This document shows, piece after piece, positions 1 through 45,805 of a stretch of DNA of 45,805 nucleotides (the first letter of the stretch is position 1; every line of letters begins with the position of its first letter). This DNA is from a virus. Location of the stretch: the IMG/VR virus record IMGVR_UViG_3300030098_005518, positions 1-45,805 of that record, one strand, 5' to 3'. Both the position numbers and the translations under genes were made by a program. Under the pieces are notes generated by a model. It was given only the letters and a program-made list of their open reading frames with translations. It was not told the origin of the DNA and made no database searches.

Positions 1-599
1 TTGATGCCCCCAGTCATCGGGGACTCGGTTTGCTACTAGTTTTTCAATTACTTGATCTTTGCTTATAAGAATGCCGTTTTGCGTAAACTGCGATCTTCCT
101 TCTTGAACAAGGTTTGGAATTGCGGGGTTTTCTCCGGTCGTAGCAGCTTTAACGAGATCTTTGGCCGAAAAGTTTGTGAACATTGTTTTAGTAACTTCAC
201 GCTTTTCAGCAATAAGCTCTAATCGGTCTTGCTCAGACTTTTGCTTAATGTGTAACAGCGCAGCTTGAACTTCTTGCGGAAGATCGCCAACCTTCATTTT
301 TTGTTCATCAACGGTAATTTCGTGATTGAGATCAAGCTCGGTGTTGTCATTTATAAGCGGCGTATATTGGTCTGCAAGTTGGGCAATTTTACTACCGTTG
401 TCGCTTGTCCATTCTTTTGGCATTGCCTTCCATAAGGCTTTCATGGTTCTGAGTTCTTTAAGGTCTGCTTTTATTCTTTGCAAATCGTAAAAAATCAGTT
501 TTTGAACAACCTTGTGCGGGATAGAGCCAATTCCAGCTTTAATAGCTGTAAAGTGAAGTGGGGTTAATAGTTTCGACCTAATTCCCTTAGCTTTAACCT
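1..599. repeat. Terminal overlap, copy 1 (direct repeat of 45207-45805)
   Basis: Aligns base for base with 45207-45805 at a constant offset of 45206. I count 19 substitutions and no insertion or deletion (about 96.8 % identity). Both copies lie in the same reading frame of the giant minus-strand gene. Eleven of the 19 changes are silent and eight are mostly conservative replacements (for example K/R, N/D, I/V, I/M); none makes a stop. The two ends are therefore two alleles of one locus, and the linear sequence is an opened circle or circularly permuted genome rather than a molecule with exact terminal repeats. Confidence 0.95.
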
Positions 600-3500
600 T
601 CCCTTTTTCATCAACTACATCGATGTCATCAGTAGCTTCTCTTCCTTCTTGGTCAAGAATATCAAGGTCTTCTAGAGCTTCCGTTTCAAGGTCTTCGTCA
701 GACATGTTTTCCATGCCGCGAGCCTCGTTTTTAGCGATAGTCCCAAGATCTCTTTCGTTTTGCTTTTGAAGCCTCTCAGCTATTTCCTCGTCTGCTTTGA
801 CTGCTTCAGGTGCCGCTTCTGGCGACATTTGCAAATCCAACAAAGAAAGATCATCATCAGTAAGAATGGATCTGTCGGCCAACCCGTTTAATTGAATGTC
901 TGACAAAAGCTCCTTAGAGCCTTCAGTGTATTCTTCAAAAAACGCTACATCACCAATTTGAGCCCTAGCTTTTTCTGGCAAACTTTCTTGATTGGTTTGA
1001 ACCAGACTAGTAGCTCTTCCAATTTTTTCTCCCATAACCGGAGGGGTTCGTTCTTCAAATCGAGCACGAGCTTCTTCCCCACGCATTGATTCTGGAAGCT
1101 GTCCAATCCAATCTTTAGTTGGCTCTTTGGAAATTGTTTCAACAAATTTGTCGTATTGCTCTCTTGTTTCAAACGAAAGCGTTTTGCTTTCTTTGTCGTA
1201 GCGAATGCCAAATTCTGGGAAAATTTCGTTTGCCCAAGCAGGCATGTCAACAAGATCGTCGAAGAAAGTTGATTCGCTATCTGTAAGTTGTACAGATTGA
1301 TAACCAGCAACGCCCTTCTCAGTAAGAGGCCCTGGTAGAGCAGAAGGCCTAGCCCTTTCAGCCAAAGCCTGTTCTTGACCTGCTCTTCGATCAATCTTTC
1401 TTTGGGTTATGTCTCGCCCTCTTTGCGCAGATTCTCTTGCGGATTGTTGTCGCGTGGGGGGGAAACCTTCCATTGTTGTAGCGCCAGCGCGACGATCAGT
1501 GATGGCGTTTTCAATACCTCTGCGGCCTCTTAATTCTCTAACGCGAGTGAGTCGCTTTTGGAACGGTATTGAGCTTGGGAGGGCTCTTGCAACATCCTGA
1601 TTAGACATCGAAGTATCTCGCAAAAGATCTCGATTATTGTCTTCAAGTTCTCGGTCAAGCGCTCTGTCGATATTGTTTCGATCATCAAATGTCAACGGCG
1701 CAGGAGTGTCACTTACTGCCTCTTCTTGATCTAGTTGAGCTTGAGCTTCTGCTTCAAGATTAGACATTGGGGGCAATTGAGTAAAACGACCCCGCGCTCC
1801 TCGCCCCGCAATTCTAGTAGGCTGGCCAGCTGGAGTTTGCAAAGGAACACGTTGCACCCCTTGGCGATTTTCTACTTCAGCTGCAATTGCATCCTCGTTG
1901 TTCTTTAACAGCCTATAGATCTTCTTCCGAAGTCCAACGCTGGTGTTTCTTTCCCTTGGATCTCCGGTCATGCGGCCAAGCATTTGATTCATTAGCTTTC
2001 TGCCGAATTGCCCTTCTTCGCCATCTCCAGCTCTTATGGCTTGTAGCGCTAAATCCGGAGCAGACATAATCAGGCCGAGGAGGGCGGCTTCTGACGGCTC
2101 TCCAGCAAGAAGCTCCTTCTCATACTTATCTGCTTGGTCTTTCTTTAGGAGGCGAGGACGACCGTCTGCTGGCTCTCCTTCGCGCTTGCGGCGTTCAATT
2201 TCCTTGTTGGCATAACTTTGCGGGAGTTTAATCCTACGACCATCTCTTGCTTCGTAGTAGATTGTTCCGCCATCCGCTGCTGTGCGAAGATCTCTTTGGG
2301 ACAGTTCTCCGATAGACTTTGGCCCCTGGATGTAATCAGTTATTAGTTCTTGCTCAACACTTCCCTCTTCAAGAATTTTGCCCCTTCTTATTAGCTCAAG
2401 AGAAGCAATAAGCGGAGTAACTCTAAATTGATCATTTCCTTCCCCCGCAAAAATCATGCTCGCTTTTTCGTCCGCAATAGGGTTGAGCATAGCGTAAAGC
2501 AAATCGTCATCTTTAATTACTGAAAGATCAGTTGCTCTGTCTTTAGAAATAGCGGTTTGTCTGGCAATTTCCTCTCTTTGTCTTTCTTTAAACAGGCGAG
2601 ATTTTAAGGTCCAGTAATCAGCGATTTCATCAGGAGTCCATTCCTGCTGCTCTTCAAAGGTCTTTGGACTTGGCCCGTATTCTGTTCGCCCTGGTCGTAC
2701 TGGGTCTGGACGGCCAGCTCTAGTTGCTATACCAGCTGGGCCACCCAAAGCTCCGCCAGTAAGGCCTGCTACTGCTACATCTCGAAAAAACCCTTCCCTA
2801 AACGGACTAAATTGAGCCGCTCGCTCTTCATCTCCCCTAATGGAATTAAAATAGTGAAGAGCAGTGTCAGCAATAATCAGTTCTGTTGCTTCTTGTAGGC
2901 CTTCACTTGTATATCCAATTAAAAACCCGTTAAGCGTCCGGCCCCAAGCCTTTTGAGCCATCTTTTCGTTTACTTTGTTTTTAAACATAAACTTCGAGCT
3001 AACGCCAGTAGTTAATGCTGTAGCGGTTGCTGCCATGGCACCTTCGGTAAGAATTACGCCACTAGCAGAATACGGGTCCATTCCCTTTTTGTTTATGTAG
3101 TAGTCTGCGCTTTCAGAAACTTGATGAGAAAAAGATTGCTGAGTGCTTAACCCTATAAATGCTCGGCTTCGGGTTTTTGCTATTTGCTTAACAGCTTTAG
3201 CTCTGCCGCCAGATTTTACGCCTTGCTCCAACAACATCTTTGTTGTTTTTTTAGCGGATCTTTTTAATGCTTCGTTTACTGTCTTTTTGCTTACTGTTTT
3301 TAAAGCCGTTTGAGCTGCCACCGATCCACCACCAGAAGCAAGTGCAGCTGCAATTGTTAAAGCAAACTCTGGTGCGGACTCCAAAGATCCATAATAAAAA
3401 TCTTCAATTATGTTTTGCTCTTCTTGGCTATAAACCTCTCCCGTGTCAGAATCAAATCTTGTGCCCTTTTTGGCCATTTGTAAATCAATATTATTAAGAG

Positions 3501-4371
3501 TAGCGCTTTCTAAAAGCGCATCGCCAACTTTGTTCTGTAGTACTCCTAGAAGATTTCCCACTCCCCCAGGAACAGCCGATCCAGCAACTTGTGTTACTTC
3601 TCCAGATGCTTTAAAAGCAGCTCCAAGCCCAAACCGAAGAGCAATTGCACCTGTATTTAAGTTGTAATAGCCTCGCTCTAAAGAATCACTCGATTTTTGA
3701 AGAAACCCAGGGTCCATTGCTTGGCCTACAGGTTTTTCTGTTCCGTCTTCTCTTATTCCATACCCCTGAACTGCTCTTCCTTGTGCCCCCTCAACCATTC
3801 GCAGTTGAGCTTGACGGTACTCAATCTCTGTCATTGATTTGGGAGGAGAATCAATCGCAGAATAAGGGATTTTAAATTCGTCCCTTAGCTTCCTTCGGGT
3901 TGTCATCCGCTCGGGAGCGGCTGGGGCCATACTGCGAAAGCCCTTTTCTTTTAAGAAGGCATTGGGGTCATCGGTGGCTTGAGCTTGTGTTAAAACGTCT
4001 TGAGGAGCTTCGGGTAAAGTTTGAAGTCTTTGCAGTTCTTCTTCTGGGTGGCCTGCTGCTCTAAGTCTTTCAATTTCAGCTGGGTCAGTTGCATACTTAC
4101 CAATTCGTTGGCTTTTTTCCCACGCTTCAAGCTCTCGTTGATGGTACTTTTGCAGCGCGTCATACCTAGGGTCAACCAGCTCTAAGTCTAGCTCTTCAGT
4201 AGTCTTGCCTTGAAAAGCTAAATCCCTAGCTATTCTTTGTGATTGTTGAAATTGATATGCTTCATCAGCTAAAGAGGTATAGCCTGTTCCAGTTGAAAGT
4301 TTTTCGCTATCAATTTCGTTGAAGGCTTTATCAAATTCTTTAGTAAGTTCTGGACTATTGAAAATGCTCAT
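1..4371 (-). CDS. Giant virion/ejection-type protein, N-terminal 1457 codons (continues at 45206)
   Basis: Open from ATG at 4371 to base 1 without a stop. Joined across the circle (base 1 corresponds to 45207) it continues to the stop at 43137, giving about 2146 aa. The start is MSIFNSPELTKEF. Roughly residues 1-300 are charged and helical. Small-residue/hydrophobic stretches near residues 330-350, 440-460 and 540-550 (Ala/Gly-rich) could be membrane-active. The rest of this part is a long Glu/Arg/Gln-rich segment. The motif TSEGLQEATELI resembles segments I associate with large phage polyvalent or internal virion proteins. Placement at the end of the late operon, after a 1189-aa protein, fits an internal core/ejection protein of a podovirus-like particle. 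No enzymatic motif was recognised. A leftover toxin-like or polyvalent multi-domain role is the alternative. Confidence 0.85.
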   Translation of the reverse strand, partial: MSIFNSPELTKEFDKAFNEIDSEKLSTGTGYTSLADEAYQFQQSQRIARDLAFQGKTTEELDLELVDPRYDALQKYHQRELEAWEKSQRIGKYATDPAEIERLRAAGHPEEELQRLQTLPEAPQDVLTQAQATDDPNAFLKEKGFRSMAPAAPERMTTRRKLRDEFKIPYSAIDSPPKSMTEIEYRQAQLRMVEGAQGRAVQGYGIREDGTEKPVGQAMDPGFLQKSSDSLERGYYNLNTGAIALRFGLGAAFKASGEVTQVAGSAVPGGVGNLLGVLQNKVGDALLESATLNNIDLQMAKKGTRFDSDTGEVYSQEEQNIIEDFYYGSLESAPEFALTIAAALASGGGSVAAQTALKTVSKKTVNEALKRSAKKTTKMLLEQGVKSGGRAKAVKQIAKTRSRAFIGLSTQQSFSHQVSESADYYINKKGMDPYSASGVILTEGAMAATATALTTGVSSKFMFKNKVNEKMAQKAWGRTLNGFLIGYTSEGLQEATELIIADTALHYFNSIRGDEERAAQFSPFREGFFRDVAVAGLTGGALGGPAGIATRAGRPDPVRPGRTEYGPSPKTFEEQQEWTPDEIADYWTLKSRLFKERQREEIARQTAISKDRATDLSVIKDDDLLYAMLNPIADEKASMIFAGEGNDQFRVTPLIASLELIRRGKILEEGSVEQELITDYIQGPKSIGELSQRDLRTAADGGTIYYEARDGRRIKLPQSYANKEIERRKREGEPADGRPRLLKKDQADKYEKELLAGEPSEAALLGLIMSAPDLALQAIRAGDGEEGQFGRKLMNQMLGRMTGDPRERNTSVGLRKKIYRLLKNNEDAIAAEVENRQGVQRVPLQTPAGQPTRIAGRGARGRFTQLPPMSNLEAEAQAQLDQEEAVSDTPAPLTFDDRNNIDRALDRELEDNNRDLLRDTSMSNQDVARALPSSIPFQKRLTRVRELRGRRGIENAITDRRAGATTMEGFPPTRQQSARESAQRGRDITQRKIDRRAGQEQALAERARPSALPGPLTEKGVAGYQSVQLTDSESTFFDDLVDMPAWANEIFPEFGIRYDKESKTLSFETREQYDKFVETISKEPTKDWIGQLPESMRGEEARARFEERTPPVMGEKIGRATSLVQTNQESLPEKARAQIGDVAFFEEYTEGSKELLSDIQLNGLADRSILTDDDLSLLDLQMSPEAAPEAVKADEEIAERLQKQNERDLGTIAKNEARGMENMSDEDLETEALEDLDILDQEGREATDDIDVVDEKGKVKAKGIRSKLLTPLHFTAIKAGIGSIPHKVVQKLIFYDLQRIKADLKELRTMKALWKAMPKEWTSDNGSKIAQLADQYTPLINDNTELDLNHEITVDEQKMKVGDLPQEVQAALLHIKQKSEQDRLELIAEKREVTKTMFTNFSAKDLVKAATTGENPAIPNLVQEGRSQFTQNGILISKDQVIEKLVANRVPDDWGHQ

Positions 4372-17623: not shown

Positions 17624-18223
17624 CTATTGACTCCATTTATCAAGCAAAATAGTTAAATCTGCTCCATCGACAATGCCATCATTATTGATGTCAGATCGGT
17701 TATTTTCAGAGCCCCAATCAGCCAAGAGAATAGTTAAATCAGCTCCGTCAACAACCCCGTTTCCGTCTATATCGCCTTGATCGCTGATTTCTACTACAAA
17801 AGACCAGACGAAAGATCCATATTCCGGCCCGAAGAAATCATCGTAAGCGAAAATAGAAACCTGTCCATTTTCGGCACAGACCTCATAGGGGCGAGAGTAA
17901 AAATTCTCACCTTGATTAATGATGGCGTATGTGCCTTGGGGTAAATCTACAGTCATATAGTAGATGACCCCTTTTTCATGAAACACTTCTTCATGGCCTA
18001 GGGTTACTACCCCTGTACTGTAGAAATAATCAGATATCTCAGTTCTGTTATCTTCATACTGAGCCAATATGAATCTTCCTGGCTCATTGGCAATGGCTAC
18101 AGAATAGGTAATTCCATCTGTAGTCGTTTGGGTAATATCCAGAGGGGTTTCTGGAGCAGGGCAATCACTTATTCCTAAGTGTGCTACTACCAAGAGAATA
18201 AAGATTATGGGGCTAATATTCAT
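17624..18223 (-). CDS. Secreted protein with two dockerin-type Ca-binding repeats (199 aa)
   Basis: The N-terminus MNISPIIFILLVVAHLGIS is a hydrophobic signal peptide, with possible cleavage before DCPAP. Residues 25-147 form an unknown beta-rich domain with two cysteines (21 and 116). Residues 151-171 and 178-198 are paired dockerin/EF-hand-like repeats, GDIDGNGVVDGADLTILL and SDINNDGIVDGADLTILL, each with D-x-D/N-G-x-V-D calcium loops and a following L..W. This repeat style is typical of secreted Planctomycetota proteins. It lies between the metallophosphoesterase/55-aa pair and the small basic genes. It may be exported by the host to act at its surface, or be captured from the host. Cohesin partner unknown. 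Confidence 0.85.
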   Translation of the reverse strand: MNISPIIFILLVVAHLGISDCPAPETPLDITQTTTDGITYSVAIANEPGRFILAQYEDNRTEISDYFYSTGVVTLGHEEVFHEKGVIYYMTVDLPQGTYAIINQGENFYSRPYEVCAENGQVSIFAYDDFFGPEYGSFVWSFVVEISDQGDIDGNGVVDGADLTILLADWGSENNRSDINNDGIVDGADLTILLDKWSQ

Positions 18224-18226
18224 GCT

Positions 18227-18394
18227 TTATTCATCGTCATCTTCGTTGTATTCAAGTTCGATAATCATGAGCAAGTCCATAGCTATATCGAACAACACAC
18301 CAGCAACTTGCCATTTGTCCATATCGAATTCAGTCATCCAATATGTGACATGCTTCTGAACTTCTATTTTCATCTTCTCAGCTGGTGAAAGCAT
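18227..18394 (-). CDS. Small acidic helical protein (55 aa)
   Basis: I chose ATG 18394, which overlaps the stop of the metallophosphoesterase gene as TAATG; a longer frame upstream would run 124 nt inside that gene. The sequence MLSPAEKMKIEVQKHVTYWM followed by an amphipathic FDIAMDLLMIIELEY and an acidic EDDDE tail suggests two helices. Coupled translation suggests function with the upstream phosphoesterase, but nothing else identifies it. Confidence 0.6.
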   Translation of the reverse strand: MLSPAEKMKIEVQKHVTYWMTEFDMDKWQVAGVLFDIAMDLLMIIELEYNEDDDE

Positions 18395-19170
18395 TATGGC
18401 ATCCTTATCAGTTCTGCGTCCCAGCATCGACCGTTTAAGCGAGATGGCCGATCCCAGATGCATTCTACGACTAATATGGCTGACCCCCACATACTCGTAT
18501 CTTTCCTCTTTGCCCATTCAGGCTTAAGAGGGCCACATGTTCCGACATTGGAGTACCAAAATGGCAATGGTATCTTGGACGTTCTTTTGCATTGGGTTGG
18601 GGCTATTGGCCTATGCGTATGCCCTCTCACGGTCAGACTAAACGGCACCCAATCACAAGCCCCTAGCATTTGAAGACCTTCTAACTCATCGCTATTCATA
18701 GCACTGTCAAAGCCATGGTAAAAATGGCATTGGCCCACCCTATAGACGCCTTTTCGTGATTTTTCGTATGGAACCCAAAACCATTCACGAAACTCCTTAC
18801 CGTGCTCTGGATGGGATTTCCAATCAACTAAACCCCTTAATGACTTTGGGATTCTCCTGGGATCTTTCGCAATAAGGTTATCGTCATGGTTCCCGGTGTT
18901 GATCCATCGAATACAATCATCAGGCAAAACATCTCTGATCGAAGAGAGTAAGTTAGCCGCATGTTCAAATTCATCGCTCAGTGAGTGGTCAAATTCATTA
19001 GCGTGAACACTTGCAGCCCCTGCCTCAAAAACATCCCCGAGATGGCCAAAATGGGTCAAATCGGGGATGTTTGCTAACTGATCAAGGATCCAGCGATGAG
19101 TCTCAGCTGGAGTAAAGGGGGAGTGTGTGCATGAAATAGCGGCTATCTTTGCACCGCGCCGCGTGTTCAT
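18394..19170 (-). CDS. Calcineurin-like metallophosphoesterase (258 aa)
   Basis: Motifs of the family appear in order: SCTHSP (His16; Cys in place of the usual first Asp of D-x-H), GHLGDVFEAG (42-51, Asp46), TGNHDDN (92-98, GNHD core), HFYHG (149-153) and VRGHTHRP (181-188). A late NVGTCGPL is also typical. Two metal ions would be held by these residues for phosphomono- or phosphodiester hydrolysis. The substrate is unknown: DNA ends, cyclic or other signalling nucleotides, or RNA are possible. The first-motif Cys should be noted because it could change metal binding. The gene lies between the small membrane-protein cassette and the dockerin gene, TAATG-coupled to a 55-aa gene. Confidence 0.85.
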   Translation of the reverse strand: MNTRRGAKIAAISCTHSPFTPAETHRWILDQLANIPDLTHFGHLGDVFEAGAASVHANEFDHSLSDEFEHAANLLSSIRDVLPDDCIRWINTGNHDDNLIAKDPRRIPKSLRGLVDWKSHPEHGKEFREWFWVPYEKSRKGVYRVGQCHFYHGFDSAMNSDELEGLQMLGACDWVPFSLTVRGHTHRPIAPTQCKRTSKIPLPFWYSNVGTCGPLKPEWAKRKDTSMWGSAILVVECIWDRPSRLNGRCWDAELIRMP

Positions 19171-19181
19171 GTTGATAAAAC

Positions 19182-19322
19182 CTACGAATTATACTTGCCG
19201 CCAGTGATGAGCTTGAGGAACGCTGTCTTAAACATCATCCCTGCACCGAAGCTCAACACACCAATCAAGGCGACAAACCAAACAGTTCCGAAGAATCCAG
19301 ACATGGATGCCAAGGTAGTCAT
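19182..19322 (-). CDS. Small single-span membrane protein (46 aa), holin candidate
   Basis: ATG at 19322 (MTTLASMSGFFGTVWFVALI) overlaps the stop of the lipoprotein-like gene as ATGA and has GGAGAAA 9 nt upstream. One hydrophobic segment, FFGTVWFVALIGVLSFGAG, is followed by a basic tail (FLKLITGGKYNS). The size and the cassette of small membrane proteins suggest a holin or antiholin, but many phages carry unrelated small membrane proteins. A longer upstream frame is rejected because it overlaps the neighbour. Confidence 0.6.
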   Translation of the reverse strand: MTTLASMSGFFGTVWFVALIGVLSFGAGMMFKTAFLKLITGGKYNS

Positions 19323-19687
19323 CGAGATTTTTTCTCCAATAGGATTTGCCTCACGATCTTGTACGTCCAAGCCCCACTGATTAGGGCCGTACAAACCACG
19401 AGTGGATAAAACAAGTAATCGTCGTATTTGGCCACTAAGTAGTTCAAAATCACCAAAATTATGCCACCAATCACCGGATACCACCCCCTCTGGCCCCTGC
19501 TGATCACAAGGAGAACCATGCCTGCTATGAGGCATAGGCTCCCGGTGATCGACAGGACTGTCAGAGGTTCCGACGATTCTGTCGCCTGACTGATGAATGA
19601 ACTCGCTTTTCCCGAAACCATTCCCCTAGGGTTAGAGTACTGGCATCCGGTCAAAAAGAAGATCATGAAGAAATGCAGTCTGGACAT
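19319..19687 (-). CDS. Lipoprotein-signal membrane protein with three further spans (122 aa)
   Basis: I chose ATG 19687 (MSRLHFFMIFFLTGCQYSN) because AGGAG lies 5 nt upstream. FFLTGC is a lipobox with Cys15 for lipidation. Then come three hydrophobic segments: LTVLSITGSLCLIAGMVLLV, GWYPVIGGIILVILNYLV and YPLVVCTALISGAW, with a basic C-terminus (LLEKKSR). The cassette context suggests host-envelope action (lysis or exclusion). The lipobox is reminiscent of an o-spanin, but spanins lack multiple spans, so I do not call it one. Confidence 0.65.
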   Translation of the reverse strand: MSRLHFFMIFFLTGCQYSNPRGMVSGKASSFISQATESSEPLTVLSITGSLCLIAGMVLLVISRGQRGWYPVIGGIILVILNYLVAKYDDYLFYPLVVCTALISGAWTYKIVRQILLEKKSR

Positions 19688-19695
19688 CTGCACTC

Positions 19696-19899
19696 CTATT
19701 CCACATTCTTTCTGATTGTAAACGCTTTGTCAAAGTGCGACTGAAGCTGGCTACTATTGCTGGTTACTCGTCGCTCTAACGCTTCAATGTGTTTTTCAGC
19801 AGCTGTGAGCCTTGAGCTTACCTTCCATAAGAATCCAAAGATCCCAAGGATCGCAGGGCCAGCAATACTAAGTCCTATAGCTGTTAGGTGAGCTTCCAT
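19696..19899 (-). CDS. Membrane-anchored coiled-coil protein (67 aa), XhlA/holin-like layout
   Basis: ATG at 19899, 1 nt after the upstream stop, with GGTGGG 4 nt upstream; an in-frame GTG at 19911 is the alternative. A hydrophobic segment at residues 5-26 (LTAIGLSIAGPAILGIFGFLW) precedes a heptad helix (LTAAEKHIEALERRV). One span plus coiled coil is the layout of XhlA-type lysis accessory proteins and of small phage inner-membrane proteins. It resembles its 88-aa upstream neighbour, with which it may pair. Confidence 0.6.
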   Translation of the reverse strand: MEAHLTAIGLSIAGPAILGIFGFLWKVSSRLTAAEKHIEALERRVTSNSSQLQSHFDKAFTIRKNVE

Positions 19900-19900
19900 G

Positions 19901-20167
19901 TTACCCACCACTACTTTCTAAACGCTCGATTCTTCTCCGTAACTCAGCCATCGTGTTAGCGTGGTTTGAATCGTTTGCTTCAGAAAGAACTTGAGATTTC
20001 ACCAAGTCCTGGGAAATCTCTCGTAGTTCAGCAATATCAGATGAGTTGTTTTGTATTTCCTGATCGCGTCGGCCAATATTCAGGAAGATACCCGCCGCTG
20101 TTGCAGTCAGAACAATTGTCTGGAGGGCAGGCCAGAGGTTCTGATGCGCACTTCTTTTCTGATCCAT
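19901..20167 (-). CDS. Membrane-anchored coiled-coil protein (88 aa), lysis-cassette candidate
   Basis: A short basic lead (MDQKRSAHQNLW) precedes one span, LQTIVLTATAAGIFLNI, and a long heptad coil ending LRRRIERLESSGG. AAAGGT lies just upstream of the ATG. The orientation (N-in, coil outside or inside) is not certain. With the next three genes it forms a run of four small membrane proteins, the most probable place for lysis functions. No muramidase or amidase is visible nearby. Confidence 0.65.
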   Translation of the reverse strand: MDQKRSAHQNLWPALQTIVLTATAAGIFLNIGRRDQEIQNNSSDIAELREISQDLVKSQVLSEANDSNHANTMAELRRRIERLESSGG

Positions 20168-33692: not shown

Positions 33693-34109
33693 TTAGGCTT
33701 GGCAGAATGCCGCGCAACAATCGGCGAGTACGTCCGATTTGGTTTCGAGTCGGCATGCTTCCATGGCAATGGCGATGCGCTCTAGGTTGCGCGTTTCGCC
33801 GTCAATGGTCACCGATTCTCGGGAAACATCGCGCCCTTGTGCTACCAGGGTATCAATGAAACGAGACACGGCGATGATGGCGTCAACCTGCGTTTGGAGT
33901 TGTGCGATCTTCGCGAGTCTGACTTGTAGCCCCGTGCGCCCCTTGCGGGATACCGTCTTAGCTTTCCCATTGGGCTTCATTGTCGAGAAGAAAGATTCGA
34001 CCGAACGCACAATATCGGTATGCGTGAGATCGGACGTCGCCTTTTCAAACGAATCAGGTTTGGGCGCTGACTTCTTGGGGGTTGCCTTCTTGCGGGTTGC
34101 GTTGCTCAT
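33693..34109 (-). CDS. First early protein, hypothetical (138 aa)
   Basis: MSNATRKKATPKKSAPKPDS is a basic, Lys/Pro-rich lead. The body is helical (LQVRLAKIAQLQTQVDAIIA, then RFIDTLVAQGRDV), ending in a helix with three cysteines (VLADCCAAFCQA). AAAAGGATAAAACA precedes the ATG. It is the first gene of the minus arm, next to the divergent control region, so probably the earliest expressed. Function unknown; a DNA- or nucleoid-binding protein fits the basic lead. Confidence 0.7.
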   Translation of the reverse strand: MSNATRKKATPKKSAPKPDSFEKATSDLTHTDIVRSVESFFSTMKPNGKAKTVSRKGRTGLQVRLAKIAQLQTQVDAIIAVSRFIDTLVAQGRDVSRESVTIDGETRNLERIAIAMEACRLETKSDVLADCCAAFCQA

Positions 34110-35655: not shown

Positions 35656-36165
35656 ATGGAGTTAAAAGAAAAACTTGCCATTCTTGAGGTAGTCCTCCCA
35701 TGGGCTAAACAGAGAATAGACAGGTTTAAGATTTGGGAATACGACGAGTTAGTGAACGAGGGGTATGTACACGCTGTAAAGATATACCCCAGGTGGGACC
35801 ATCAAAAAGGCGCTTTAACCACGTTCCTCAACGCTTCCCTTTATGATCATGTCTTTAGAAGCTACGCAAAACAGCACAATATAGAAATCAAAAGAGATCG
35901 TTCTGGCGGTACGCAAGGAAAGCGAATTTACACCCCCAAGATGCATTACACAGCAAAACTAAAAGATATAGCTGATGAACAAGTAGAAAAGGAAAATGTC
36001 CCCTGGGATCTCTTGTCAGAGATGCCTAGAGCGGTTGCCTATTTACTTGGCATAGGTTTAAGCAAAGCGCAGACAGGGAGGGTTTTAGGGGTTTCGGGCT
36101 CTCGTATTAGTCAGTTGGCGTTAGAAATTAAGAGCCTGATGGAAAAAGAACGCCGTGCCAAATGA
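35656..36165 (+). CDS. Sigma-70-like transcription factor (169 aa)
   Basis: Residues 25-75 show a region-2 pattern: WEYDELVNEGYVHAVKIYPR, then FDP-like WDHQKGALTTFLNASLYDHV with aromatic residues as in promoter-melting helices. Residues 130-160 (LSKAQTGRVLGVSGSRISQL) are a region-4-type HTH. It is much shorter than host sigma factors and lacks region 1. It overlaps the terL start. A late-gene sigma factor is the likely role; a terminase small subunit is the alternative because of the position just before terL. Confidence 0.7.
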   Translation: MELKEKLAILEVVLPWAKQRIDRFKIWEYDELVNEGYVHAVKIYPRWDHQKGALTTFLNASLYDHVFRSYAKQHNIEIKRDRSGGTQGKRIYTPKMHYTAKLKDIADEQVEKENVPWDLLSEMPRAVAYLLGIGLSKAQTGRVLGVSGSRISQLALEIKSLMEKERRAK

Positions 36166-37870
36166 GTTTTACGATCTAGTCCCTAAAGATCTAGAGGCAA
36201 ACCTAGCCTTTAGAAATGAAATTATCCGTACAGGAAGCACGGATCGCAAAGCGGCAGAAGAGCTGTACATCATGTGCAGTAGGGATTTATTGTTCTATGT
36301 AAACGCATTTTGTTGGACTTATGACCCCAGGGTGGGGGATGGGGTTCTGCCGTTTGTCACCTATGAGTTTCAGGACGAAGTCCTTACTGATATAGAAAGC
36401 GCCCTAGGCAATCGCGACCTTGTAATCAAGAAAAGCCGTGATATGGGCGCATCTTGGATGCTACTCACTGTTTTTGAGTGGCGATGGCACTTCCGGGCTA
36501 ATCAGTCATTTTTGTTAGTAAGCCGTAATGAAGATTACGTCGATAAACCAGGTAACCCAAAAAGCCTTTTTTGGAAGATCGATTTCATACACAAGTATTT
36601 GCCTGGATGGCTACAGGCAAAGCATACCAGGACGAAATTAAGACTTACGAATGAAGATAATGGCAGTTCAATCGATGGCGAGTCAACCACTGGGGATGTG
36701 GCTCGCGGTGACCGCCGTACTGCTATTGGCCTCGATGAATTTGCTGCTTTTGATATTGACGCTGGCTATCGGGCGCTTGCATCGACTCGTGACGCAACAA
36801 ATTCAAGAATCTTCAACAGTACACCAAGCGGAACAAACAACGCCTTCTACGACCTTGCGAACAACGAAACAATGGAGCAACTCTCACTCCATTGGACGCT
36901 GCATCCTGTCAAGTCAACTGGCAGCTATGAAGATAGCCAAGGCAAAACGCGAAGCCCGTGGTATGACGAAGAGTGCAAAAGATGTGCGAACCCACAAGAA
37001 ATTGCACAAGAACTCGACATCGACTTCGCGGGATCAGATTACCAATTCTTCGACACAAGAATAATCGACGACCTAATTCAAAAGACGGGATCGCATCCTT
37101 ACACCGCTGGGGAGCTGAAATACAATGCTATTACCGGAAAGCCAGAAGATTTTGACCAGAAGCCCAAAGGAACCCTGCGTCTTTGGTGCCACCCAGATGC
37201 CCAAGGGGATCTTCCAACAGATCGACGTTACGTCATTGGTGCAGATATTGCAGCAGGAACCGGAAGTAGCAACAGCGTCCTCTCCATTGGTGACTGCAAA
37301 ACTGGGGAAAAAGTAGGTGAACTTGTCACGCCGAACCTTCGGCCCGATCAGCTGGCGACGTATGCGGTCGCCCTCGCACAATGGTTTAAAGGGAATAGCG
37401 AGGGAGCCCTACTTATATGGGAAGCTCCTGGACCCGGACGCAACTTCGGAGACAGAGTCCTTGAATTGGGATACCGACGAATCTGGTACAAGAAAGACCA
37501 ATCGGGAAAGATATCTAAAATCCCAGGCTGGTGGCCGACCAAGGATGAGAAAAGGGTCTTATATAGCGAATATAGATCTGCATTATCCACAAAACATTTC
37601 ATTAATCATAGCGCAGATGCTTTGCGAGAATGTAAAGAAATCATATTTGCCGCCACCGGATGGATCACTCACTCAAGATCGCTCCGTACCGTTGATCCGT
37701 CGGGTGCGCGTGAGAATCATGGAGATCGTCCAACTGCTGACGCACTCTTGTGGAAGGGAATGCAGAAAATCCCGTCAGATAAGCCGATACCGATAGGTGT
37801 ACCTAGGGATTCAATGATCTGGCGAAGGCAACAGGTAGAAACTCGTAAGCGAAAAGCTATGGAATGGTGA
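36155..37870 (+). CDS. terL: Terminase large subunit (571 aa), GTG start
   Basis: GTG start (GTGCCAAATGAG) overlaps the sigma-like stop. Motor motifs: KKSRDMGASW (92-101, deviant Walker A), IGLDEFA (191-197, Walker B and catalytic Glu) and NSTPSG (221-226, coupling motif). Nuclease motifs: IGADIAAGTGSSNSV with Asp364, and a late GDRPTADALLWK. The length is typical of ATP-driven packaging enzymes. It would cut and translocate phage DNA into the prohead through the portal encoded 3 nt further on. Confidence 0.93.
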   Translation: MPNEFYDLVPKDLEANLAFRNEIIRTGSTDRKAAEELYIMCSRDLLFYVNAFCWTYDPRVGDGVLPFVTYEFQDEVLTDIESALGNRDLVIKKSRDMGASWMLLTVFEWRWHFRANQSFLLVSRNEDYVDKPGNPKSLFWKIDFIHKYLPGWLQAKHTRTKLRLTNEDNGSSIDGESTTGDVARGDRRTAIGLDEFAAFDIDAGYRALASTRDATNSRIFNSTPSGTNNAFYDLANNETMEQLSLHWTLHPVKSTGSYEDSQGKTRSPWYDEECKRCANPQEIAQELDIDFAGSDYQFFDTRIIDDLIQKTGSHPYTAGELKYNAITGKPEDFDQKPKGTLRLWCHPDAQGDLPTDRRYVIGADIAAGTGSSNSVLSIGDCKTGEKVGELVTPNLRPDQLATYAVALAQWFKGNSEGALLIWEAPGPGRNFGDRVLELGYRRIWYKKDQSGKISKIPGWWPTKDEKRVLYSEYRSALSTKHFINHSADALRECKEIIFAATGWITHSRSLRTVDPSGARENHGDRPTADALLWKGMQKIPSDKPIPIGVPRDSMIWRRQQVETRKRKAMEW

Positions 37871-37873
37871 TTG

Positions 37874-39673
37874 ATGGCATACACCTACGACAATAACAAG
37901 GCATCTCGGCTTCAAAACGCTATTGAATACTCGCGGCGTAAGTTGCAGCCATATAGAGAAAAGCGCCTTCATGCAATTAGGCAATTTGTTGGAACGCACT
38001 ACACCGACAACGGTGCGACTCAGCGCGTACCAATGAACTTACTAGAAATGGCTATCTCGATTTATCGTCGGGCCATTGCTGCGCGAAGACCGCAAATTTT
38101 AGTAAAGTCGAAAAGTCGAGAAAGAGCAGCTGTTGCAAACCAGTTTGAGTTTGCTCTTAACTCTCTGATTAAAGACATTGACCTTGAGACAACAATACAA
38201 AAATGGGTTACCGATGCCATGTTTGGTATGGGTATTGTCAAAGTCGGCCTTACCGACAGCGGCATGGATATGGGTGGTTTTGAACACGACCCAGGCCAAC
38301 CTTTTGTAGACAATGTTGATTTCGATGACTTTGTCTTTGATATGACTGCAAAGCGTTGGGACCAAATACAGTTCTCAGGGAACAGGTACTGTTGCCCTTA
38401 TGAAGCAATTGTCCAAAGCAAGATGTTTGGCAAGAAGACAAAAGACATACAGCCAAGCATTTACCAAAAGACTAATGAGTTTGGTGAAGAGCGCATTCAA
38501 CAAATCGGATCAGGTGAAGGGTACTTTGGAGATGAGTACTATTCCCCAATTGTTGAGCTTTGGGATATTTGGCTGCCAATCGAAAATGTAGTTGTCACTG
38601 TTCAGGCAGATGATCGTGGTGGCGTTTCTCAATCTGAACCCCTTAGAGTTGTAGAGTGGGAAGGCCCAGAAGAAGGCCCCTTCTACACCATGGGATTCGG
38701 GGAAGTGCCAGGGAATCTAATGCCCCTTTCGCCAGCGTCATTGCTCATGGATCTCCATGAAATGGCAAACAAAGTCTTCCGAAAGGTATCCCGACAGGCG
38801 GATCGGCAAAAGACCATTACTGTCGTTCAGTCCGGTCACGAGTCCGACGGTGAGCGGATCGTTGAAACCAATGACGGAGATACGATTCGGAGTGATCGGC
38901 CCGAAGCGACAAGAGAAGTGCGCTATGGCGGGGTTGATCAACCAACCTTGGCTTACTTGATTCAGCTCAAAGACATGTTTGTCTATATGGGCGGAAACTT
39001 GGACGCCCTTGGCGGACTTGGGAAGCTCAGTGACACAGCTGCACAAGAGCAACTTATCTCTAAGTCGGCCTCCGCTCGCATTGCCGACATGCAAGAGTCT
39101 GCAACAAAGGCGGTTAAGGAAGTGGTTACAGCGGTCGCAAAATACCTTTGGTATGACCCCGTGACTAAACCGACGGTCCTAGTCAAGATTCCTGACACGG
39201 ATTATGAGGCTTCGGTCGAATTTGGCCCAGAAATTCGTGAAGGTGAGATTGTTGAGTATGAGCTTGATATTGCACCTTACTCAATGGTTGATCGAAGCCC
39301 GTCAGAACGAGCAAAGACCTTGGGCGAACTTATGCAAGGCTTTGTTATTCCCATGGCCCCAATCCTTCAACAGCAAGGTTACAGGCCAGATATGGGCAAA
39401 TTCCTCGAACTTATGGCAAAATACAGCAACACAGAGGAACTTACAGAAATCGTGAAGAAGATCGACCAGCAAGACATGGCCAACATCCAACAAATGCAAG
39501 AGGTTGGAGGAGATCAAGAGCGACCAACTCAGTCTCCAGTAACAACACGGCGGAACATTAGGGAAAACGTTCCCGGTTCTACCCGAGAGGGCCGAGATGA
39601 GGCCATGATGCAACTTCTTGCTGGCGGTGGTCAGCCTGCTCAAGCTGGTCAAATGGCGGAGAACACCGGATAA
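37874..39673 (+). CDS. Portal protein (599 aa)
   Basis: I chose ATG 37874 (MAYTYDNNKASRLQNAIEYS), 3 nt after the terL stop (TTG 37871 is possible). Features: AIAARRPQILVKSKSRERAA, then FVDNVDFDDFVFDMTAKRWD, LVVVTVQ-like strands, DMFVYMGGNLDALGG in the wing/stem, and a C-terminal Gln/Glu-rich tail (MANIQQMQEVGGDQERPTQS). Position directly after terL and before scaffold/capsid is the classic portal place. The length is normal for podovirus-like portals. The end has a TAATG overlap. Confidence 0.9.
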   Translation: MAYTYDNNKASRLQNAIEYSRRKLQPYREKRLHAIRQFVGTHYTDNGATQRVPMNLLEMAISIYRRAIAARRPQILVKSKSRERAAVANQFEFALNSLIKDIDLETTIQKWVTDAMFGMGIVKVGLTDSGMDMGGFEHDPGQPFVDNVDFDDFVFDMTAKRWDQIQFSGNRYCCPYEAIVQSKMFGKKTKDIQPSIYQKTNEFGEERIQQIGSGEGYFGDEYYSPIVELWDIWLPIENVVVTVQADDRGGVSQSEPLRVVEWEGPEEGPFYTMGFGEVPGNLMPLSPASLLMDLHEMANKVFRKVSRQADRQKTITVVQSGHESDGERIVETNDGDTIRSDRPEATREVRYGGVDQPTLAYLIQLKDMFVYMGGNLDALGGLGKLSDTAAQEQLISKSASARIADMQESATKAVKEVVTAVAKYLWYDPVTKPTVLVKIPDTDYEASVEFGPEIREGEIVEYELDIAPYSMVDRSPSERAKTLGELMQGFVIPMAPILQQQGYRPDMGKFLELMAKYSNTEELTEIVKKIDQQDMANIQQMQEVGGDQERPTQSPVTTRRNIRENVPGSTREGRDEAMMQLLAGGGQPAQAGQMAENTG

Positions 39674-40941: not shown

Positions 40942-41997
40942 ATGGCAACTCTTCAGGCAGCTGATATTGCTGATCTGATCACGACCACCCAGCGAGATCT
41001 GGGCCGTCTGCGATGGACTGACCTCTCTTACGATCTTCAGGATTACGTGGCTCTGCCATCAATTCTGCAACGTGAGAAGGTTTCCTACCAGTCAGGTCAA
41101 GCTCTTCAGTGGAACGTGATGACCGGAACCAGTGGCGCAACACGCGACACGGGTTTGTATGAAGTCGATAGTGTGAACGTCGCAGATGTGATGCAAACGG
41201 CAACAGTTCCGTGGCGTCATATGACGACTAACTACGCTATTGAACGACGCGAAATCGCGATGAACCGCAGCCCAGCTCAAATTGTTGATCTGGTCCGCAT
41301 TCGCCGCCACGATGCAATGGTTGACCTTGCGAAGCACATGGAAACTCGCTTCTGGTCCGCGCCAACATCATCTAGCAACAACACTCAAATGTACGGTATT
41401 CCGTATTGGGTTTCTTGGGTTGCTGATGCAACTGGCGACTTTGTTGGTGGTGATCCGTCTGGATTTAGCGATGGCGCTGGTGGACTTTCGTCCAGCACTT
41501 ACAGCCAGTGGCAGAACTTCTCTGCAACTTACACTAATGTCACAAGCGTTGACTTGGTTCGTAAGTGGCGTCGAGCTGCAACATTTACAAACTTCCGCGC
41601 TCCAGTCGCGGGTAATGAATATGGAAGTAGCGCTCGTGGCAAGTACGGGTTCTACACAAATTACGATGTCATTGGACCACTCGAAGAAGTCCTTGAAGCA
41701 CAGAATGAAAATCTGGGCAATGACATTGCGTCTAAGGATGGCAAGTTGCTGTTCCGCCAGATCCCAGTTACATGGGTTCCAGAACTGAACAGTCGAACTG
41801 GTGATCCCGTTTACGGTATTAACTGGTCAGTGCTCAAGCCAGGATTCCTCGCAGGTGAATACCTCCGCGAAGAAGGCCCAGCTAAGGCGTCCAATCAGCA
41901 CACCGTCTTCCTCACACACGTTGACCTCACGATGAACTTGATCTGCCACAATCGGCGAGCAAACTTCGTGTTGGCCAAGAGTGACCCGACGGCTTAA
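40942..41997 (+). CDS. Major capsid protein (351 aa)
   Basis: MATLQAADIADLITTTQRDL; AAGTC-ATG with GGAGA upstream. The sequence has the look of an HK97-fold coat protein: early helices, the middle VPWRHMTTNYAIERREIAMN, DAMVDLAKHMETRFWSA, the loop-rich glycine region (VGGDPSGFSDGAGGL), and the C-terminal HTVFLTHVDLTMNLICHNRR. Strong codon care, length and position after scaffold confirm. No protease motif is seen in the neighbours, so no processed delta domain is implied. Confidence 0.88.
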   Translation: MATLQAADIADLITTTQRDLGRLRWTDLSYDLQDYVALPSILQREKVSYQSGQALQWNVMTGTSGATRDTGLYEVDSVNVADVMQTATVPWRHMTTNYAIERREIAMNRSPAQIVDLVRIRRHDAMVDLAKHMETRFWSAPTSSSNNTQMYGIPYWVSWVADATGDFVGGDPSGFSDGAGGLSSSTYSQWQNFSATYTNVTSVDLVRKWRRAATFTNFRAPVAGNEYGSSARGKYGFYTNYDVIGPLEEVLEAQNENLGNDIASKDGKLLFRQIPVTWVPELNSRTGDPVYGINWSVLKPGFLAGEYLREEGPAKASNQHTVFLTHVDLTMNLICHNRRANFVLAKSDPTA

Positions 41998-43136: not shown

Positions 43137-45805
43137 TTACTGACTTTCTATAAATTGTCGCCTTACGCCCTTTGATGCGTTTCCATAGAATCGCTCTAAG
43201 CCGTTTTCAATCTTAGCTTTGTTTTTGGATTCAAATCGACGCTTGAGATCGTCAATATTAAACGACATATCTGGATACAAGCTATTAAACAAGTTCATTG
43301 TTTCAATGGCTTCTTTGTATTTGCCGTCAACCAAAAGTGCAGCTGCTCGATCTTTGTACTTGTCTTCTTGTGCTCTTAGAACTTGAAGACGAGAGTATTC
43401 TAAAGACATAACACTTTGGTTTACTGTTCTAAAGCCTCCTGCAAGCTCCATCCACAAAGCTCGGCCTTTATCTTCATCTCTAAATCGCAACTGGCCGCGA
43501 GAATCATATTCGTCGTGGTATCCAGATAGTCTTTCAACATTGCCAAGAAGCCATTTAAAGGTAGGTGATGTATCTTTAAACTTTCTATAAGACGCTGTTG
43601 CTCTAGAGATATCACCGACATCTTTGTGACTACCAAAGATTGCTGAACTCATATCAGTAATAAATCCGCCTGTCGGGCCTTTAAATTGATTCCAAACAAC
43701 CTCTGGCATTGAGTCGCCAAAGTTCCCCTGGAAAAGACCAGTAGACCCAGAAAGATCTATGCCAATTAACCCAGGTAAACCAAAGGTAAATGTATCTGCG
43801 GCAGTTTTGCCAACCCTTTTCTTTAAACCGTTATGCCAAGAGGCAAGCATCTTTTGATGATCCATTTCCTCTTCATCTGACATTCCGAGAAGTGATGCAA
43901 TCTTAGAAATGCCCCACCAAAGAGGAAGGCCTGTTAACACAATGCCTCTCGCTCCACCAATAACGGCTTGCAAAGCCAGCCATTTACCTACGCCAGAATA
44001 CCTTTTGTTTTGATGCCCTTCTTTCAAAAGCTGAAGGCCGTAACCAATCATGTTCATTTGGAAACGTCGGTATTGCAGCAAAGTGCTTGCAATTGGGCTG
44101 TGCAAGATTGGGGGAAGATTGGCCCGTGTAAACATAAACTGACTGCCAACGTAACCTTGAACTGTTGCGTATTCTGCCGCGTCTGTGTCGCTCATTCCTT
44201 TGCTTTTTCCGTGTAAGTAAAAAGCTATAAAGGAAAAGTTCATATTGCGAAGTTCTGATTGTGTCGAAACCTTGCCTCGCAAAGCATGTTTATCTAATAA
44301 CTCTTGACCCCTTGTAACAACGTCAATTGCCTTTTGGCCAAGAGAAGTTACAGAGCCGTCAATATACATTCCGGCGCTAGAATCCATTCGGCCATGCTTG
44401 TCTAATAATGCTCTGCCTTCAGCAGTGTTGTGCATTCTAGCGGCTTGAAGAAAAATCTTTTCCCCAACAACTGGATAAACCGTTAGCAAAGGCTGAGTTG
44501 AGTTAACAAGCCATTGCCTTGGCGTTTTAAGTTGTCTTAAAAAGTTAAAAGCTCTAAATCCAGAAAGAAACCGCCTTGTTGGCATTGGCGAATTTCTAAG
44601 GCCAGGAATGCTTTGGATAAGACCATCAAGCATAATCTCCGCGCCTGTTTGCTTTGTAAACAATGCATTAGAAAGAACGTCTTCTAAATATTGCCCAAAA
44701 GAATTACCCTTTTGTTTTAGCGCAGTAATTTCTGGTTGGGCAGCTTTCGTCATCATACGTCCGTACTTATGACGATTTCTAGCCCTGGTGTACGCAGTCC
44801 ACACCTTGGGGAAATTCATGCTGTACCCAGTAGCTCCAGTTCTTTGAAGAAGCGGAGCAAAGAAAGGGCTTCGGTTTTCTTTGAGTTTGACGCGAGCCTT
44901 AAACAGCGCATCATTAATTTCTTCGCTAGTTGCGTCTGTTTCTGATCTTAAAGCTCTTTGCAAAGCAGATCTTTCTGCCTTAGACAAGCTCATAAAATCG
45001 GGATCTTCGTTATAGGCTGGTTTAGCTTCAAACCTAGTAAACTTGACGTTCTTAAGGTTTTGAGGTGGACTCGCTTTAAAATCGTAAAGTGCTTGGTAAG
45101 CCTCTTCTGCTGTATTGGCTTCACCTGGGACAGAATAAGAGTTGCCCTCTTCGTCGTAGGCTCGCAGCTTATACCTACCAAACCAAGCGTGGTGGAAGTA
45201 AGCATATTGATGCCCCCAGTCATCGGGGACTCGGTTTGCTACTAGTTTTTCAATTACTTGATCTTTGCTTATGAGAATGCCGTTTTGCGTAAACTGCGAT
45301 TTTCCTTCTCGAACAAGGTTTGGAATTGCGGGATTTTCTCCAGTCGTAGCAGCTTTAACGAGATCTTTGGCCGAAAAGTTTGTGAACATTTTTTTAGTAA
45401 CTTCACGCTTTTCAGCAATAAGCTCTAATCGGTCTTGCTCAGACTTTTGCTTAATGTGTAACAACGCGGCTTGAACTTCTTGCGGAAGATCGCCAACCTT
45501 CATTTTTTGTTCATCAACGGTAATTTCGTGATCGAGATCAAGCTCGGCGTTGTCATTTATAAGCGGCGTATATTGATCTGCTAGTTGGGCAATTTTATTG
45601 CCGTTGTCGCTTGTCCATTCTTTTGGCATTGCCTTCCATAAGGCTTTCATAGTTCTGAGTTCTTTAAGGTCTGCTTTCATTCTTTGCAGATCGTAAAAAA
45701 TCAGTTTTTGAACAACCTTGTGTGGGACAGAGCCAATTCCAGCTTTAATAGCTGTAAAGTGAAGTGGGGTTAATAGTTTCGACCTAATTCCCTTAGCTTT
45801 AACCT
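43137..45805 (-). CDS. Giant virion/ejection-type protein, C-terminal part (continues from base 1)
   Basis: The frame is open to the right edge. Bases 45207-45805 repeat 1-599, so the non-redundant C-terminal part is 45206-43137 (689 codons plus stop), giving the full protein of about 2146 aa. An ATG at 45680 is not the start: the other allele has ATA there. The C-terminal part is mixed: ARNRHKYGRMMTKAAQPEIT, a helical region around FRAFNFLRQLKTPRQWLVNS, the SPIASTLLQYRRFQMNMIGY block (resembling the PLxRFG-type end of phage polyvalent proteins), and a hydrophobic LQAVIGGARGIVLTGLPLWW near residue 1880. A membrane-penetrating ejection role is plausible. Confidence 0.85.
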   Translation of the reverse strand, partial: VKAKGIRSKLLTPLHFTAIKAGIGSVPHKVVQKLIFYDLQRMKADLKELRTMKALWKAMPKEWTSDNGNKIAQLADQYTPLINDNAELDLDHEITVDEQKMKVGDLPQEVQAALLHIKQKSEQDRLELIAEKREVTKKMFTNFSAKDLVKAATTGENPAIPNLVREGKSQFTQNGILISKDQVIEKLVANRVPDDWGHQYAYFHHAWFGRYKLRAYDEEGNSYSVPGEANTAEEAYQALYDFKASPPQNLKNVKFTRFEAKPAYNEDPDFMSLSKAERSALQRALRSETDATSEEINDALFKARVKLKENRSPFFAPLLQRTGATGYSMNFPKVWTAYTRARNRHKYGRMMTKAAQPEITALKQKGNSFGQYLEDVLSNALFTKQTGAEIMLDGLIQSIPGLRNSPMPTRRFLSGFRAFNFLRQLKTPRQWLVNSTQPLLTVYPVVGEKIFLQAARMHNTAEGRALLDKHGRMDSSAGMYIDGSVTSLGQKAIDVVTRGQELLDKHALRGKVSTQSELRNMNFSFIAFYLHGKSKGMSDTDAAEYATVQGYVGSQFMFTRANLPPILHSPIASTLLQYRRFQMNMIGYGLQLLKEGHQNKRYSGVGKWLALQAVIGGARGIVLTGLPLWWGISKIASLLGMSDEEEMDHQKMLASWHNGLKKRVGKTAADTFTFGLPGLIGIDLSGSTGLFQGNFGDSMPEVVWNQFKGPTGGFITDMSSAIFGSHKDVGDISRATASYRKFKDTSPTFKWLLGNVERLSGYHDEYDSRGQLRFRDEDKGRALWMELAGGFRTVNQSVMSLEYSRLQVLRAQEDKYKDRAAALLVDGKYKEAIETMNLFNSLYPDMSFNIDDLKRRFESKNKAKIENGLERFYGNASKGVRRQFIESQ
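45207..45805. repeat. Terminal overlap, copy 2 (direct repeat of 1-599)
   Basis: Second copy of the circular junction; see the first copy for mismatch counts. It ends at base 45805, matching base 599. Which allele is the typical one cannot be told from this sequence alone. Confidence 0.95.

Follow-up and report, generated by a model that had tools for sequence, protein, structure and literature searches.

The window, a 45,805-bp IMG/VR virus record analysed here over its whole length, encodes a protein whose C-terminus is a dockerin in which both calcium loops are complete. Judged from its sequence, this protein is a member of a phage family that carries no name in the libraries searched and that occurs at more than one genomic site. 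Our preferred reading, to which we assign a probability of roughly 45%, is that the protein is exported and moored by its dockerin on the host surface, where it would shield or modify the infected cell. We consider it well supported that this host is a planctomycete.

The dockerin protein and the phage that encodes it

The gene and the parts of its product are as follows, all on the minus strand:

17624..18223, minus: dockerin gene (ATG start, 199 aa, stop codon included in the coordinates)
18167..18223, minus: putative signal peptide MNISPIIFILLVVAHLGIS (about aa 1-19, placed by a hydrophobic peak)
17783..18139, minus: beta domain (aa 29-147; nine predicted strands; AlphaFold2 mean pLDDT 81)
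17630..17776, minus: C-terminal dockerin (aa 150-198; from PF00404, NF041540 and model superposition)
17738..17773, minus: calcium loop 1, DIDGNGVVDGAD (aa 151-162; positions 10-11 are Gly-Ala)
17657..17692, minus: calcium loop 2, DINNDGIVDGAD (aa 178-189; positions 10-11 are Gly-Ala)

An earlier note on this DNA had described a signal peptide followed by two GADLTILL calcium repeats. That description holds, in that both loops are complete and the N-terminus is signal-like, although the beta domain at aa 29-147 had been overlooked. GADLTILL is present in each repeat (aa 151-171, DIDGNGVVDGADLTILLADWG; aa 178-198, DINNDGIVDGADLTILLDKWS), and both 12-residue calcium loops carry Asp or Asn at positions 1, 3, 5, 9 and 12, so that their ligands are complete. 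When all six frames of the window were scanned with a single-loop pattern, nothing matched except the two loops of this protein. A double-loop pattern matched once in the window and in 0 of 200 simulations of it (order-1 Markov).

Profile searches place the C-terminus close to the thresholds of two dockerin families. Pfam Dockerin_1 (PF00404) aligns with aa 150-193 at E 2.3e-4 and 21.8 bits, 1.1 bits below its curated cut-off of 22.9, and NCBIfam NF041540, named 'GC-type dockerin domain-anchored protein', scores 29.4 bits, above its cut-off of 29. The homologue in a sister phage shows the reverse, with 24.9 bits for PF00404 (above 22.9) and 27.4 for NF041540 (below 29). All nine phage proteins that we aligned, the window protein included, match PF00404 at E <= 0.1. 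In the AlphaFold2 model, one helix is predicted after each calcium loop (160-168 and 187-195), and the dockerin model superposes on chain 2y3n_B with a VIA-align Z of 8.8 (rmsd 2.0 Å over 56 residues, 32% identity) and on 2ozn_B, from C. perfringens NagH, with a Z of 7.6. Five loop residues (D151, D162, D178, D182 and D189) are invariant across the nine aligned proteins, as are W140 and a pair of cysteines, C21, directly before the beta domain, and C116. UniProt A0A516MFS6, an entry of the viral structure library that bears no protein name in the tables consulted, is likewise 199 aa long and 100% identical to the window protein.

The hydrophobic peak at the N-terminus reaches 3.79, the highest among the 60 window ORFs compared, and this hydrophobicity is consistent with a putative signal peptide. 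In L111 and L116, two of the nine aligned members, the N-terminus is not clearly hydrophobic, and export is therefore not a trait of every member. A lipobox at C21 was ruled out by eye, the residue at -1 being Asp.

For the beta domain, searches of PHROGs, Pfam and PDB sequences gave no convincing relative, and Foldseek gave no match to its fold in the PDB at E <= 0.001. The nearest solved folds, the C-terminal sandwiches of GH98, were set aside because their Z of 7.9 lies inside the tool's stated noise. No match was found in 199 Planctomycetota genomes, in a search that had no positive control and whose empty answer is thus uninformative.

The following features describe the remainder of the phage genome as far as it bears on the dockerin gene:

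1..599, no strand: terminal overlap, repeating 45207-45805 with 19 mismatches
14699..15814, minus: SU10-type adaptor, a virion protein (PF24175, 33.7 bits against a cut-off of 27)
18394..19170, minus: metallophosphoesterase gene, upstream of the dockerin gene (PF00149, 21.5 bits, at cut-off)
19182..19911, minus: overlapping small ORFs, membrane-protein-like by eye, with one lipoprotein-like frame
36155..37870, plus: terminase large subunit (PF03237, 32.7 bits against a cut-off of 22)
37871..39673, plus: SU10-type portal (PF23899, 31.4 bits against a cut-off of 30)
40942..41997, plus: putative major capsid protein (assigned from its position and conservation, with no Pfam family; 88% identical in the sister phage)

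Because the ends of the record overlap by 599 bp, the phage genome is near-complete. With an SU10 portal and an SU10 adaptor both above cut-off, the phage classes as an SU10-type podovirus; a primase-like protein and a helicase are also encoded. The dockerin gene is flanked on the same strand by the metallophosphoesterase gene on one side and by virion-block genes on the other. Three frames scanned from the small ORFs at 19182..19911 gave no Pfam family above cut-off; these ORFs possibly have a lysis or envelope role. Two adjacent paralogous genes (16045-17347; 219 and 210 aa) adjoin the dockerin gene, and the minus-strand stretches 43137-45680 and 1-4371 are probably a single very large ORF split by the ends of the contig.

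A phage gene family at several sites

The sister phage (record G002, 41,317 bp, of which loci L088, L091 and L093 are parts) encodes a dockerin gene at the same position, with about 41-42% identity (L088:1501-2100). The nearest neighbours of this gene are 60-85% identical between the two phages, and several same-strand genes further along are 27-50% identical; because these further genes vary as much, the divergence of the dockerin gene is high but not unique. Within the protein, the dockerin half is 55% identical and the beta half 36%, which indicates that the docking part is more constrained than the beta domain.

We then considered 58 loci, recruited mainly through similarity to the portal, capsid, terminase or phosphoesterase, several of which are parts of one contig. 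Dockerin ORFs were found in 16 distinct contigs, the window included, and they fall at three sites. Site A, after the phosphoesterase gene, is occupied in the window and in the sister record. Site B lies in the head-gene block, where the dockerin gene stops 1.2-1.4 kb short of the capsid gene; it is occupied in nine contigs, three of them with identical protein, and in the five contigs whose stretch as analysed takes in a portal match, that match is upstream. Site C lies directly before the phosphoesterase gene in five contigs, two with identical protein. The phosphoesterase, which is 85% identical in the sister phage, is thus the flank marker for sites A and C. An hhalign comparison of the site-A and site-B beta domains gave a probability of 90 and an E of 1.5e-6. 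These domains are therefore homologous, and the two sites hold a single gene family at different genomic places. The N-domain of the site-C proteins differs: it does not align with that of site B, and the model of the site-C family is poor (pLDDT 50). The accessory slot that holds the site-C dockerins is occupied in L123-L129 by a small protein that looks like a Flp/Tad prepilin by eye (e.g. ERGMQTAEYMILGTVMGAGSIGA); its identity as a Flp pilin was not adopted, the only match being one to DUF4244, below cut-off, in one of three peptides.

Only 8 of 35 related whole records match a dockerin profile (E <= 1), and relatives of 41.8, 45.0 and 44.6 kb have no match, so the gene is accessory. In one of the eight (G032) the dockerin lies within a 419-aa frame that lacks a signal-like start, and the adjoining gene is minor-head-protein-like by eye. 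Where substitution rates could be measured, dN/dS lay at 0.05-0.12 in three pairs from site B and at 0.25 in one pair from site C, indicating purifying selection in relatives; between the window and sister genes, silent sites are saturated along the entire gene, and this pair stands outside the range given. The absence of the double loop from all 200 simulations, the retention of the gene in place in the sister and the purifying selection in relatives together argue that the dockerin gene is not a product of chance.

The full-length protein found no relative in IMG/VR, and an alignment of the two phage proteins found the sister record alone. Among 50,697 phage records there was no match for the full-length protein, for the site-B homologue L109 or for the putative capsid. 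Scanning IMG/VR with the dockerin alignment gave 139 confirmed stretches, of which the best 80 were used, and scanning with the window's own dockerin gave 14. From these, 88 loci were newly numbered, and 86 of them contained 91 dockerin ORFs. After 10 ORFs at contig edges and 13 identical duplicates had been dropped, a hydrophobicity threshold of our own setting divided the rest into 29 ORFs that have a signal-like start and a dockerin at the end, 5 that have such a start but whose dockerin is not terminal, 6 small ORFs with no clear signal and 28 that are longer or signal-less. The window's beta domain was found in 41 of these loci with a dockerin alongside in 41 of 41 ORFs, as selection by dockerin favours. 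Among the 58 loci, all 14 ORFs with the beta domain (11 contigs, window included) also carry a dockerin and no dockerin-less frame matched, the beta-domain profile having been built from rows of the same set in which it was counted. Since six of the 41 loci are contigs already among those 11, the family that joins the beta domain to a dockerin comprises 46 IMG/VR contigs. It is possible that cellular DNA has been misassigned as viral in some IMG/VR contigs.

Dockerins also occur on other phage-borne proteins. The two signal-bearing dockerin ORFs tested, those of L240 and L246, belong to the subtilases (Peptidase_S8, E 3.5e-42 and 2.4e-39). Signal-bearing proteins of 467-483 aa are encoded in L240, L241, L242, L244, L246 and L269, with terminal dockerins that end in WGACP, WGTCP or WGNC. 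A protein of about 357 aa with its dockerin some 30 residues before the end is encoded at L250 3152-4234, and similar ones in L186, L187, L247, L251-L255, L259, L261, L272 and L273; L187 and L239 have a dockerin neighbour of 800 aa. A GGDSGSPAF stretch had suggested by eye that the L250 protein is a serine protease, and a cohesin-like region had been seen by eye before the dockerin of a signal-bearing protein in a 102-kb viral contig (L227 3353-4159); PDB sequence searches and BLASTP supported neither.

Evidence on the host

The proposal of a planctomycete host, made earlier from the sequence, is supported by two kinds of relatives: the nearest cellular dockerins are planctomycete, and distant relatives of the terminase, portal and putative capsid genes are found in Planctomycetota genomes. 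The second of these is a further clue, so the dockerin is not the only strong indication of the host, as had been supposed.

The association of the repeats with Planctomycetota agrees with a scan of cellular genomes that used patterns taken from the query itself. Among the best 80 of at least 197 confirmed loci, 75 are titled Planctomycetota, one 'Bacteroidia' and four just 'bacterium'. The 'Bacteroidia'-titled genome shares its phylum sample with a Phycisphaerales MAG, i.e. with Planctomycetota; one 'bacterium' genome (L072, which is G062) falls in the order of that MAG, and the other three 'bacterium' loci are one single, unassigned genome. In 44 of the 49 measurable cellular cases no more than 14 residues separate the dockerin from the stop, as in the window protein. 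Gly-Ala occupies positions 10-11 in loop 1 at 43 and in loop 2 at 41 of the 50 loci (out of 80) that could be parsed, counts that are biased because the query patterns contain those residues. Dockerins were found in 10 of 10 Planctomycetota genomes (1-51 matches each) versus 1 of 14 named control genomes; seven of the ten had been chosen for earlier dockerin matches and one, G441, for a capsid match, while G064 and G066 had been chosen for neither. With the phage profile at E <= 1e-8, matches were found in 2 of 119 Planctomycetota genomes, one of which is the sample centre with 55 matches. Strong matches to the phage dockerin profile are thus not general in Planctomycetota.

Cohesin domains, which the earlier note had envisaged as the docking partners, were looked for in 25 dockerin-bearing genomes: a cohesin scored above the Pfam cut-off in three and was detectable at E 0.001 in six, and the other 19 gave no match at that threshold. 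One cellular protein carries a cohesin together with a C-terminal dockerin that scores below cut-off. A Cys-containing tail is found on 29 of 64 terminal cellular dockerins and on none of the 13 that this phage group encodes, and is present in ORFs of other phage contigs (L188, L240 and L246).

The structural genes were traced by a profile of the putative capsid, which matched one genome, G441, among 392 from Planctomycetota (E 2.8e-80; the contig measures 6,955,728 bp). Beside this capsid relative lie relatives of the terminase (31% identical), portal (33%), connector (33%) and adaptor (24%), so that G441:C1:3010167-3020522 (L157, L158) is a distant relative of the structural module inside a 7-Mb planctomycete contig. 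We regard it as a lead towards a prophage. In the order of a Phycisphaerales MAG, the putative capsid matched 5 of 400 genomes, and in five of the six capsid-bearing genomes the terminase and portal matched on the same stretch. One of these five genomes of that order contains a 46,906-bp contig with overlapping ends (G495:C61; L170, L176, L177) in which relatives of the terminase, portal and capsid follow in the same order. No dockerin was found in the stretches inspected around these distant relatives. The capsid search in cellular genomes covered Planctomycetota, as the control that had been centred on 'Bacteroidia' drew Planctomycetota again.

The terminase matched 144 phage records, mostly of Vibrio and enterobacteria, but at 22-34% identity among the 20 matches listed these are too distant for a host to be named from them. 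No CRISPR spacer link was found between 20 kb of the window and 400 genomes of one order. Short DNA matches to those 20 kb occur in 44 of the 400 genomes, with most of the matches at window positions 34060-34103. Because the 33-44 nt matches there lie at the start of a Lys-rich gene, often several to a genome, we read them as low-complexity and rejected them as spacers.

Possible roles and comparison with known systems

According to our preferred reading, the infected planctomycete would export the dockerin protein by the general secretion route, as its hydrophobic N-terminus suggests. The folded product would consist of a beta domain, probably stabilised by a disulphide, on a dockerin whose fold is predicted and which would bind calcium. 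The dockerin would moor the protein to a cohesin-type or equivalent receptor of the envelope, in competition with the dockerin-tagged proteins of the host, and the moored protein would display its faster-changing beta domain at the host surface. Surface receptors could in this way be masked or altered during late infection, a timing taken solely from the place of the gene among virion genes. The likeliest benefit, which we put forward only tentatively, is superinfection exclusion or the prevention of re-adsorption by progeny. As the beta domain has no convincing relative, receptor masking is put forward by analogy.

The main rival reading is that the protein is a component of the virion, inside the particle or on its exterior, and that its dockerin attaches the particle to surface cohesins of the host at adsorption. 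It owes this place to another phage contig, in which a 2148-aa protein (L192 710-7156) matches PHROG baseplate wedge families (best E 6.8e-52) and carries 30 tandem dockerin-type calcium loops (19 profile matches); from its sequence, it may be a component of the virion adapted to binding of the dockerin type. The site-B copies within the head-gene block, the unclear N-termini of L111 and L116, and the signal-less frame of G032 beside a minor-head-like gene point the same way. Against this, most members open with a hydrophobic segment resembling an export signal, that of the window protein being the strongest, and virions assembled in the cytoplasm do not normally take up exported proteins. The conserved cysteine pair, moreover, would suit an oxidising, extracytoplasmic location. 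Decoration of the virion, one of the functions offered earlier, therefore fits poorly with an exported protein, the dockerin loops of the baseplate-like protein notwithstanding, and we consider a virion role unlikely.

We give similarly little credence to the idea that the dockerin is a sorting tag, a C-terminal label for a surface-anchoring route that needs no cohesin, with the activity of the cargo (adhesion, help in lysis or a change of the envelope) being what matters. The words 'domain-anchored' in the NCBIfam family name, the 19 of 25 dockerin-bearing genomes with no detected cohesin, and the C-terminal position of 44 of 49 measurable cellular dockerins would all accord with such a tag. 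The Cys tail, however, is shared by none of the 13 dockerins of this phage group, in which a Cys-based anchor would fail.

A late, envelope-active protein that helps lysis or release, encoded near candidate membrane proteins, seems improbable to us: the small frames at 19182-19911 do look membrane-protein-like, but no lysis family was detected and no catalytic motif recognised in the dockerin protein, and site B lies elsewhere in the genome. That the gene is a captured host gene useless to the phage, or a chance motif, would agree with its accessory distribution but is contradicted by the selection data (dN/dS of 0.05-0.25 in measurable relatives), the 46 contigs and the 0 of 200 simulations, and we judge it very improbable indeed.

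A wider proposal may be worth stating, though we hold it to be doubtful: the cohesin-dockerin surface of Planctomycetota could be a general docking platform for the phages that infect them, with dockerin-cohesin binding serving adsorption as well as alteration of the infected cell's exterior. This proposal would join the dockerin-moored shields, the dockerin-tagged subtilases and the 30-loop baseplate-like protein. That a virus family has kept, moved and re-used the same module under selection suggests that docking by dockerin matters at the host surface. In the planctomycete genomes examined that bear dockerins, these are numerous, but a cohesin was detectable in only 6 of 25. The small, soluble phage module could serve as a probe for the dockerin partner. 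The dockerin also provides a sequence handle for spotting candidate planctomycete phages, as with the 139 confirmed IMG/VR stretches.

The nearest known domain is the type I dockerin (PF00404), which the window protein resembles in its pair of calcium loops, with a helix after each, and in its C-terminal position. Chain 2y3n_B belongs to a cellulosomal GH48 of B. cellulosolvens, in an entry whose title speaks of a type II cohesin-dockerin. Unlike this chain and 2ozn_B, the dockerin described here is phage-borne and attached to a beta domain of no recognised enzyme family, its binding to a cohesin is putative, and its loops have Gly-Ala at positions 10-11, as planctomycete dockerins do. The window protein scores above the cut-off of the GC-type family, yet its tail is WSQ and has no Cys. 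We take 'GC-type' to refer to a Gly-Cys-type C-terminal tail; as the window protein lacks one, we class it simply as a dockerin, without counting it as a full member of the GC-type family.

Small exported lipoproteins with which phages exclude superinfection by masking a receptor are exemplified by Llp of T5 and Cor of N15. The likeness to the window protein is one of functional analogy only, as those proteins are lipid-anchored, lack a dockerin and have no sequence link to it.

Dockerins have been noted in other phages. Gene 40 of Vibrio phage VvAW1 has dockerin similarity that is discussed, in the available part of the source, for integration and not for docking (PMC3558961), and A0A8S5M688 is annotated 'Dockerin type 1 [Myoviridae sp. 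ctCL221]'. These are different phages, and the layout of signal, beta domain and dockerin is known for the window family, not for them. A chronic phage of a planctomycete has been described in a paper whose available part does not contain the word dockerin (PMC10945688), and among the open-licence papers listed, no title or abstract opening described a planctomycete phage with an exported dockerin protein. The closest counterpart on the host side is the planctosome, a hypothesised cohesin/dockerin surface complex of freshwater Planctomycetes (PMC6461901). As presented in the available part of that paper, it is host-encoded and peptidase-centred and has no phage component described; itself a hypothesis, it would provide the surface cohesin on which an exported phage dockerin could be moored.
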